Below, in pieces: positions 18,609 through 50,064 of a stretch of DNA of 64,000 nucleotides (its first letter is position 1; each line of letters opens with the position of its first letter). The notes below the pieces were generated by a model that saw only the letters and a list, made by a program, of their open reading frames with translations, had not been told where the DNA came from and ran no database searches. The translations under genes were made by a program, and so were the position numbers. Origin of the DNA: Streptomyces sp. HUAS 15-9 (GTDB lineage Bacteria > Actinomycetota > Actinomycetes > Streptomycetales > Streptomycetaceae); NCBI RefSeq assembly GCF_025642155.1, contig NZ_CP106798.1:5766001-5830000 (forward strand). Reading direction: 5' to 3'.

Positions 18609-19694
18609 GTGCATGCTTTCCCACACAGCACCACATGGATGCCGACGGCGGTCCTGGTCCCGCCGGCGCTGGCTCTGCCGTTGATCGAGTCGGCGTTTCC
18701 CCGGCAACGCCATCCGTATTGGCCGCGACTACAGGAGAAGACCCGCTTCTGGCTCCTGGAAAAGCGGCTCATGCCGGCGGACAAGGTGAAGGAATATGCC
18801 GACGGCCTGTGCTACACCGACCTCATGGCGGGCTACTACATGGGTGCCCCCGACGACGTCATGCAGGCCATCGCCGACTACAGCGCGTGGTTCTTCGTCT
18901 GGGACGACCGCCACGACCGCGACATCGTCCACGGCCGCACCGAGGACTGGCGGCGGCTCAGGTTCCGCCTCCACGCGGCCGTCGACTCACCCGGGCACCA
19001 CGAGTCCCATCCCGACCCTGTGGTGGCGGGACTGGCGGACAGCGTGCGGCGGTTGTACTCGTTCCTGCCCCGGACCTGGAACACCCGGTTCGCCCGGCAC
19101 TTCCACGCGGTGATCGAGGCGTACGACCGGGAGTTCCGCAACCGCGTCAGGGGATACGTTCCCGGGGTGGAGGAGTACCTCGCCCTGCGGCGCCTGACCT
19201 TCGCACACTGGATATGGACGGACCTGCTGGAGCCCAGCGCCGGATGCGAACTCCCGGACGCCGTGCGGAAACACCCGGCATACCGCCGTCCGGCACTGCT
19301 GAGCCAGGAATTCGCCGCCTGGTACAACGACCTCTGCTCACTCCCGAAGGAAATCGCGGGAAACGAGGTGCACAATCTCGGAATCAGTCTCATCACCCAT
19401 GAGGGGCTGACTCTGGAAGAGGCAGTCGTGAAACTCAGGCGGCGCGTGGAGAATTGCGCGGAGCAGTTCCTCGAAGCGGAAATGGTCGCCCTGCGGTTCG
19501 CCGACCGGCTCGACGACGGCACCGTACCGGGAAAGGAACTCGGTGTCGCCGTACGGTCCTGCCTCAGCAATATGCGGAACTGGTTCAGTTCCGTCTACTG
19601 GTTTCACCACGAGTCCGGCCGGTACATGGTCGACAGCTGGGACGACCGGTCCACGCCCCCGTACGTCAACAACGAAGCGGCAGGTGAGAAATGA
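18609..19694 (+). CDS. cyc1: epi-Isozizaene synthase (sesquiterpene cyclase)
   Basis: The 361-residue class I terpene cyclase converts farnesyl diphosphate to epi-isozizaene, precursor of albaflavenone. It has the Asp-rich motif DDRHD at D99 and the NSE triad in NDLCSLPKE at N240, the same positions I recall for the S. coelicolor enzyme, and an almost identical C-terminus ([20 protein letters not shown]). The GTG at 18609 reproduces the known MHAFPH start and length. Its stop overlaps the P450 start by ATGA. An upstream spacer of about 250 bp carries no other gene. Confidence 0.95.
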
Positions 19695-48206: not shown

Positions 48207-49613
48207 ATGTCGGTAGGCGAAGAGGTCCGCACGGATCAGGGCAAGCCGCAGCAGTCCCTGGACACCGCTGCCGCGCGGAACCTGGCCACCACCACCAAGT
48301 CCGCTCCTCAGATGCAGGAGATCAGCTCCCGCTGGCTGCTGCGGACGCTGCCATGGGTGAACGTGCACGGCGGCACGTACCGGGTGAACCGGCGACTGAC
48401 GTACGCGGTCGGCGACGGCCGCATCACCTTCGTGAAGACGGGCGGCCGTGTCGAGGTCATCCCGGCCGAGCTCGGCGAGCTGCCGGCCCTGCGGTCGTAC
48501 GAGGACGGGGAGGTGCTGTCCGAGCTGGCCCAGCGCTGCCGGCAGCGGGACTTCGCACCGGGCGAGGTCATCGCCTCCTTCGGCAGCCGGACCGACGAGG
48601 TGTACTTGCTGGCCCACGGCAGGGTGGAGAAGGTCGGCACCGGCCCGTACGGCGACGACGCGGTCCTCGGTGTCCTCGCCGACGGGTCGTACTTCGGCGA
48701 GCAGGCGCTGCTCGACCCCGACGCCATCTGGGAGTACACGGCCCGCGCGGACACCGCCTGCACCGTGCTGATCCTGTCCCGTGAGCACTTCGAGCAGGTC
48801 GCCGAGCGCGCCGACTCGCTGCGCGAGCACCTCCGGCAGATGCGCTCGATCCCCGAGCAGCGCACCAACAAGTACGGGGAGAAGGCGGTCGACCTCGCGG
48901 CCGGCCACAGCGGCGAGCCGGACATCCCGCACACCTTCGTCGACTACGAGGCCCGGCCGCGCGAGTACGAACTCAGCATCGCCCAGACCGTGCTGCGCAT
49001 CCACACACGCGTGGCCGACCTCTACAACCAGCCGATGAACCAGACGGAACAGCAGCTCCGGCTGACAGTCGAGGCATTGAAGGAGCGTCAGGAGCACGAG
49101 CTCGTCAACAACCGTGAGTTCGGGCTGCTGAACAGCTGCGAGTACGACCAGCGGCTCCAGCCGCACGACGGCGTACCCAGCCCGGACGACATGGACGAGC
49201 TGCTCAGCCGTCGGCGCGGCACCAAGCTCTTCCTGGCCCACCCGCGCGCGATCTCCGCGTTCGGCCGTGAACTCAACAAGCGGGGACTCGTCCCTGAGAC
49301 CGTCGAGATCGGCGGCAACCGCATCCCCACCTGGCGCGGGGTGCCGATCTACCCGTGCAACAAGATCCCGGTCACCCCGGAGCGCACGACGTCGATCATC
49401 GCCATGCGTACGGGCGAGGACGAGCAGGGCGTCATCGGACTGCGGCAGGCCGGGATCCCGGACGAGATCGAGCCGAGCCTGTCCGTCCGCTTCATGGGCA
49501 TCAATGAACAGGCCATCATCAATTACCTGGTCACGGCCTACTACTCGGCTGCGGTCCTGGTCCCGGACGCGCTGGGCGTGCTGGAGAACGTCGAGATCGG
49601 TCGGTGGAGGTGA
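48207..49613 (+). CDS. Family 2B encapsulin shell protein with cyclic-nucleotide-binding domain (EshA-like)
   Basis: The 468-residue protein has a flexible N-terminus with [20 protein letters not shown] and [10 protein letters not shown], a cyclic-nucleotide-binding insertion ([36 protein letters not shown], about residues 95-215), and a C-terminal HK97-like capsid portion (residues 230-468). This order marks the EshA proteins now classed as family 2B encapsulins, which form icosahedral shells around terpene cyclases, polyprenyl transferases or cysteine desulfurases. The gene downstream seems to be a gutted polyprenyl synthase. Confidence 0.9.
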
Positions 49614-49725
49614 CGTCTCCGCACTTCGCGGCCGTGTCCCCGCCCCTCGGGGCGGGTAGGTCATCCGGGTACGCGCCCAGTCGGAGCGGAAGCGCCACCG
49701 TCCGCCGGCGCCGCGAGGGGGGCCC

Positions 49726-50064
49726 ATGGCCGAGTTCATGACGGAGACGAAACAGCGCCCCGCCGGAGCACCGCAGGCCAGTGAGCCACCGGAGCCACGC
49801 CGACGGCGAGGGGCCGCCGGGGTGGCCGGGCCGGTTCCGCTCGACGGGCACGAGGCAGCGGTGATCCTGGACCGGGCCCGGACGTCGGTCGACCCCCAGC
49901 TGTGCACCGCCGTCGAGCGAGCGGGCGGCCATGACTGGGCGCAGGCCCAGGCCGCCGACCGCATGGGCCGGGCGATGCAGGAGCTGGCCCGCGCGGTTCC
50001 CGATCCGGAGTCGGCGGGCGGTCTGCTCGCGCTGGCCGAGTTCGTGACCCGGCGCAGCAGTTGA
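49726..50064 (+). pseudogene. Internally deleted polyprenyl diphosphate synthase (candidate encapsulin cargo remnant)
   Basis: The 112-residue open frame joins three parts. Residues 1-38 are disordered and Pro/Ala/Arg-rich (KQRPAGAPQASEPPEPRRRR). Residues 39-66 (LDGHEAAVILDRARTSVDPQ) read like the first helix of shell-linked polyprenyl synthases. Residues 67-112 (HDWAQAQAADRMGRAMQELA, ALAEFVTRRSS) read like the last helices of the same family. The catalytic core with both DDxxD motifs is missing, and the frame is kept across the join at about 49915-49925. The ATG follows a GAGGGGGG site. It may be a decayed gene or a mini-protein that keeps a shell-targeting tail. Confidence 0.65.

Follow-up and report, generated by a model that had tools for sequence, protein, structure and literature searches.

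In the genome of Streptomyces sp. HUAS 15-9, a family 2B encapsulin shell gene is followed by an open reading frame (ORF) of only 112 codons. The locus raises the question of whether a cargo enzyme has been lost, leaving the shell an orphan, or whether the short product still enters the shell as a plug, decoy or scaffold. Polyprenyl transferases, carrying disordered heads of 50-100 residues, are described as a main family 2B cargo in the accessible text of PMC8346489. Positions below are those of the window, the whole stretch of DNA that was analysed (64,000 nucleotides), unless a genome coordinate is given.

The shell gene and the short ORF

The following features were located in the window.

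48207..49613, + strand: family 2B encapsulin shell gene, eshB-like, 468 amino acids, intact (profile, Pfam and structure-relative matches)
49715..49722, + strand: purine-rich, ribosome-site-like stretch 5' of the short ORF (read from the sequence; a similar stretch in 6/6 relatives compared)
49726..50064, + strand: short ORF, 112-amino-acid remnant of a cargo gene for a polyprenyl transferase, its two ends fused in frame
49726..49908, + strand: retained cargo start, with a Pro/Arg-rich head (residues 1-37) and the first helix (approximately residues 38-61), from split matches and alignment
49909..49917, + strand: junction, GCCGTCGAG, codons A-V-E, a possible deletion repeat
49909..50061, + strand: retained cargo end, 51 codons (NF041169 positions 280-333/334)

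The shell ORF matched the profile NF041163 (encap_f2b) over positions 1-450 of 450 with 769.8 bits, against a cut-off of 400. Membership of family 2B is defined by an HK97-like SrpI-type domain with an inserted cyclic-nucleotide-binding-like domain, and both were present (PF19307, E 2.4e-136, and PF00027, E 5.3e-18), in agreement with the shell gene with these two parts described in an earlier sequence-only reading of this DNA. The closest solved structures by sequence were 9bhu, 9bix and 9bje. The mean pairwise dN/dS of the shell was 0.140 between HUAS 15-9 and eight relatives and 0.163 in the 28 pairs among those eight. In a tree of 80 shells, the HUAS 15-9 shell grouped with those of three loci which all have an intact cargo gene (L066, L064 and L138), and the S. 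brasiliensis shell (L062), 93 % identical to that of HUAS 15-9, lay outside this group with L129, with a support value of 93 for all six.

A sigma-factor-like ORF is located approximately 4 kb upstream of the shell. The shell is a putative EshB, placed by neighbourhood from this ORF and from SCO5250, a polyprenyl synthase. In S. coelicolor, eshB is SCO5249 and eshA is SCO7699 (PMC3878966, accessible text), and SigH is SCO5243 (PMC9739823, accessible text). The shell is of the same type as EshB, whereas the cargo gene beside it is gutted in HUAS 15-9.

The short ORF begins 112 bp after the shell gene (stop at 49613, start at 49726), and the ORF coordinates bear out the gap and the two positions as originally read. 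Residues 58-111 matched the last 54 positions (280-333/334) of NF041169 (f2_encap_cargo4, E 4.3e-13), at a score (49.2 bits) below the curated cut-off of 450, so that the short protein does not itself count as a member of this cargo family. The two Asp-rich DDxxD/G motifs are the catalytic motifs of polyprenyl transferases; the 112 residues contained neither a DDxxD motif nor a DD pair anywhere, and no PF00348 match was obtained in a Pfam search at E 0.001. Residues 1-64 matched the start and residues 62-112 the end of cargo proteins, and the Pro/Arg-rich head aligned with the heads of the relatives' cargos. The predicted structure had no confident fold (pTM 0.29, mean pLDDT 64.7), with pLDDT below 50 at residues 6-35, a proxy for disorder only, and a helix at residues 41-54.

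The missing core and the cargo gene in other Streptomyces

The 80 nearest shell loci were taken from the GTDB genome collection (first sample). An N-terminal and a C-terminal piece of the short ORF were found with tblastn, approximately 0.8-0.9 kb apart, in 77 of the 80 loci, the exceptions being L062 (deletion), L087 (contig end) and L096. The N-terminal piece started approximately 113 bp 3' of the shell in most loci, and some of the N-terminal matches were weak (E up to 4.5). A 16-row alignment contained a single clean gap in the HUAS 15-9 sequence, corresponding to 267-274 residues in the 12 relatives measured (14 tried), within the range of about 250-300 that had been anticipated. In one intact cargo protein (L092) both DDxxD/G motifs (positions 132 and 264) are located between its junction sites (58 and 330). 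The split match, together with one gap holding both Asp-rich motifs, supports the proposal, made at the outset, that the short ORF is a polyprenyl transferase cargo gene from which the catalytic core has been deleted in frame. Shell family, gene order, spacing and cargo start and end are those of family 2B systems with a polyprenyl transferase cargo (PMC8346489, accessible text; NF041163 with NF041169), whereas the catalytic core is missing in HUAS 15-9.

That the short ORF might belong to an independent small protein family with only a resemblance to the cargo is consistent with the lack of a Pfam match at E 0.001. This idea was rejected as extremely improbable, as both ends of the ORF match a single gene 3' of the shell, with approximately 64-92 % identity for the C-terminal piece and 34-58 % for the N-terminal piece (up to 78 % for short N-terminal pieces) in the tblastn comparison. 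Nor did an end-to-end match to such a family appear, since only two of 45 proteins of similar length span the whole query. One of these, P0001 (97 amino acids), was the one near-identical protein found in a search of 5.8 billion protein sequences; it is encoded on a 2818-base contig and has the same junction as HUAS 15-9, with a further 15 residues lost in frame. The other, P0002 (171 amino acids), is from S. paradoxus.

A full polyprenyl synthase had been expected at this place in other streptomycetes, and this proved to be the rule. In the first sample the cargo frame was full and open in 75 of 79 assessable loci (71 by script, and L083, L101, L118 and L124, which had been flagged only for an extra weak match; L087 was left out because of the contig end). 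The remaining four had a large deletion (L062), a frameshift (L091 and L137) or a short C-terminal remnant only (L096). The second sample consisted of 80 of the 391 other genomes of the genus, every fourth in two ranges and hence non-random, and a shell was found at E 1e-190 or better in 75 of these. Of 67 eshB-like shell matches (at least 71 % identity), 66 were examined, G337 being left out because of a contig end, and L222 was set aside as a probable paralogue because there was a closer shell in the same genome. The cargo was intact in 60 of the 65 loci (59 by script and L206 after inspection), it was frameshifted in L178 and L191, and no cargo was found within approximately 2.3 kb downstream of the shell in L188, L207 and L213 (3/65). 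The shells of the latter three matched over residues 2-468, 1-468 and 10-468, respectively, and were stop-free. The two samples overlap in species, L080 and L159 being on contigs of identical length (1338440), and their counts are not to be added.

The frameshifts in L091, L137, L178 and L191 stand beside open shell frames and may be sequencing errors; the one in L178 may be real, because that genome consists of one contig.

Three further deletions of the cargo gene were found. In S. brasiliensis (L062) the cargo is kept well past the HUAS 15-9 junction and its C-terminal end is then joined out of frame; among the final 30 residues of this remnant, three occur in none of 70 intact relatives. 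In S. paradoxus P0002 still more of the cargo start is kept and the join, with other ends, is in frame. In the metagenome-assembled genome L096 the cargo is almost wholly lost, with approximately 10 C-terminal codons left. An ancestral short form common to HUAS 15-9 and S. brasiliensis was considered and rejected, since each retains residues which are lost in the other. Neither the S. brasiliensis nor the S. paradoxus form can have arisen from that of HUAS 15-9, and the cargo has been lost separately in several lineages. This repeated loss of a polyprenyl transferase cargo beside intact shells is a new point, if a modest one; the open-access literature listings yielded no description of a cargo gene decaying next to a shell that is kept.

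An assembly or sequencing error in the HUAS 15-9 genome, to which its GC-rich sequence might lend itself, was regarded as very unlikely, given a genome of 3 contigs with 100 % completeness and the existence of other deletions in the same cargo gene. The shared junction in P0001 also speaks against an error, but only if its contig is independent, since both sequences may stem from one organism.

The junction, the kept frame and the fate of the remnant

The junction codons encode Ala-Val-Glu (GCC GTC GAG), and this or a similar triplet occurs in phase at both edges of the lost stretch in relatives. In S. cellostaticus (L068), and only there, the two sites share an unbroken match of 10 bp, 819 bp apart. 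In six other relatives the longest unbroken run at the junction sites was 3-6 bp, and 3/10 relatives could not be placed; in L138, the nearest relative compared, the match was 5 bp. Because the runs were this short in the six other relatives, a repeat-mediated deletion can be offered as a guess only.

The sequence-only reading had taken the preserved frame and ribosome site as arguments against random decay. The start region, i.e. the purine-rich stretch and ATG, was similar in 6/6 relatives, including the out-of-frame S. brasiliensis, and is thus inherited. The chance of an in-frame deletion is 1/3 if phase plays no part. Exact direct repeats at least 600 bp apart were counted in the 75 intact cargo genes, which are related so that the counts are not independent, and the in-phase numbers were 9251/18381 for repeats of exactly 5 bp, 3024/5772 for 6 bp, 1150/1984 for 7 bp, 541/835 for 8 bp, 187/300 for 9 bp and 163/196 for 10 bp or more, the in-phase share being 50 % at 5 bp and 82 % at 10 bp. 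Since widely spaced repeats are often in phase, an in-frame deletion is an ordinary outcome that needs no selection. With an inherited start, repeats in phase in 50-82 % of cases and an out-of-frame join in S. brasiliensis, the argument against random decay is not supported. More generally, because direct repeats in these GC-rich genes are in phase more often than 1/3 of the time, an open frame that survives a deletion in them says little about function.

Residue conservation was compared for the retained C-terminal block (C-block, 50 residues; 70 of the 75 relatives, five of other length being dropped) and the N-terminal helix (11 of the 75 cargo proteins, lacking the helix pattern, being dropped). 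The mean pairwise dN/dS of the C-block was 0.172 for HUAS 15-9 against eight relatives and 0.177 among the relatives, and that of the N-helix was 0.655 and 0.414, respectively; these are pairwise counts only and most of the divergence predates the deletion, so that no signal in them is attributable to the remnant. In mean dN/dS over both parts HUAS 15-9 ranked 23rd of the 61 sequences, its own included, that passed both filters. Residue 69 is His in the short ORF and Arg in 70/70 intact relatives, and residue 60 is Cys and in 62/64 relatives Arg. One of the 50 C-block residues occurs in none of the 70 relatives; 17 of the relatives likewise carry one or more residues that no other relative has. 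These data would fit a recent deletion and also residual constraint, neither constraint nor clear relaxation being evident.

Recurrence of the short form in several strains had been proposed as a check, and the short form did not recur. Among the matches listed for 391 other genomes it was absent, the next best match scoring 88.7 bits as compared with 231.2 bits for the ORF's own, and in a second search of 394 other genomes (E 1e-26; the set overlaps the first) only the HUAS 15-9 genome carried it. A protein search with P0002 likewise gave no whole-length homologue besides P0002 itself (1/51 rows).

These results bear on the possibility that the fused protein still functions as a cargo without catalysis, its head docking in the shell and the peptide serving as a plug, decoy or assembly scaffold. 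In favour of this, the ORF has kept the head, the first helix, the start site and the stop, all in one frame; loading of family 2B polyprenyl transferases has been suggested to go through their disordered N-terminal regions (PMC8346489, accessible text); and S. paradoxus has a second in-frame core deletion. For targeting, however, the accessible text of the same paper reports no motif conserved among these cargos, and the singular occurrence of the short form, the differing ends and lack of homologues of the S. paradoxus form, the out-of-frame join in the near relative S. brasiliensis, the absence of a confident fold and the ordinariness of an in-frame outcome all make a working fusion highly improbable. 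It is likewise highly unlikely that the fusion has been kept as a dead cargo which occupies or scaffolds the shell, with the deletions in HUAS 15-9 and S. paradoxus as parallel routes to it. Of the two alternatives posed for this locus, a lost cargo beside an orphan shell is thus the better supported, and the plug, decoy or scaffold has gained no positive support, the short form being found in no other genome among the matches listed.

The most likely explanation is an ordinary, recent loss of the cargo enzyme while the shell was kept, as has happened more than once in this genus, and a probability of approximately 85 % was given to the short ORF being a recent cargo pseudogene that has lost its core beside a retained shell. 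A deletion of approximately 800-820 bp, possibly between short in-phase Ala-Val-Glu repeats, would have removed the catalytic core, and the start site, the targeting-like head and the last helices would have ended up fused in frame. We infer the repeat mechanism, the recency of the event and the inactivity of the short protein. Since the shell is intact and conserved, the strain would make at most an eshB-type shell minus its usual enzyme.

The shell without its usual enzyme

HUAS 15-9 may thus be regarded as a naturally occurring knockout in which a Streptomyces compartment has lost its cargo gene but not its shell gene. Together with the separate losses it forms a natural series in which any function of an eshB-type shell without its polyprenyl transferase could be studied. 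Repeated cargo loss with the shell kept could be due to a shell role that is independent of the polyprenyl transferase, or to another cargo supplied in trans. This is a real possibility, if somewhat short of an even chance, and it is compatible with the pseudogene reading. The shell is conserved in HUAS 15-9, all 80 shells of the first sample, including L062 and L096, had no internal stops, the shells of L188, L207 and L213 are stop-free without a cargo, and the paralogue EshA is reported to affect ppGpp synthesis and antibiotic production (PMC6627660, accessible text). On the other hand, the cargo is intact, and thus usually kept, in 75/79 and 60/65 loci, and retained shells may only be lagging in decay.

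The genome also contains a second shell without an obvious cargo and a cargo2 gene without an adjoining shell, both on the same contig.

G000:C1:1053738-1055087 (L142 7649-9103): second family 2B shell, 67 % identical to the shell at 48207-49613 and approximately 4.8 Mb away
G000:C1:898505-899488 (L156 6395-7513): cargo2 gene, 2-MIB-synthase-like terpene cyclase, over its cut-off

No obvious cargo neighbour of the second shell (1.05 Mb) was seen among ORFs of at least 200 amino acids, and no matches to NF041169, NF041167, PF00348 or PF19086 were found within 100 kb of it. A full cargo4 copy elsewhere in the genome was not found either, 0 of 11 NF041169 matches being over the cut-off (best 403.5 bits, cut-off 450 bits). 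There was no full shell match beside the cargo2 gene (898 kb), and the gene 3' of it reads as a putative methyltransferase. As a cargo in trans the cargo2 protein is doubtful, as its profile match begins only at position 40, its head looks short, and the head, as read from the sequence, is without the GPTGLGT motif quoted in the accessible text of PMC8346489. Shell genes without evident cargo have already been reported in some two-component family 2B operons (PMC12407261, accessible text); in contrast to these, HUAS 15-9 has one shell per locus. A terpene synthase match (PF19086, 147.8 bits) was also observed at 18876-19463 in the 64-kb window.
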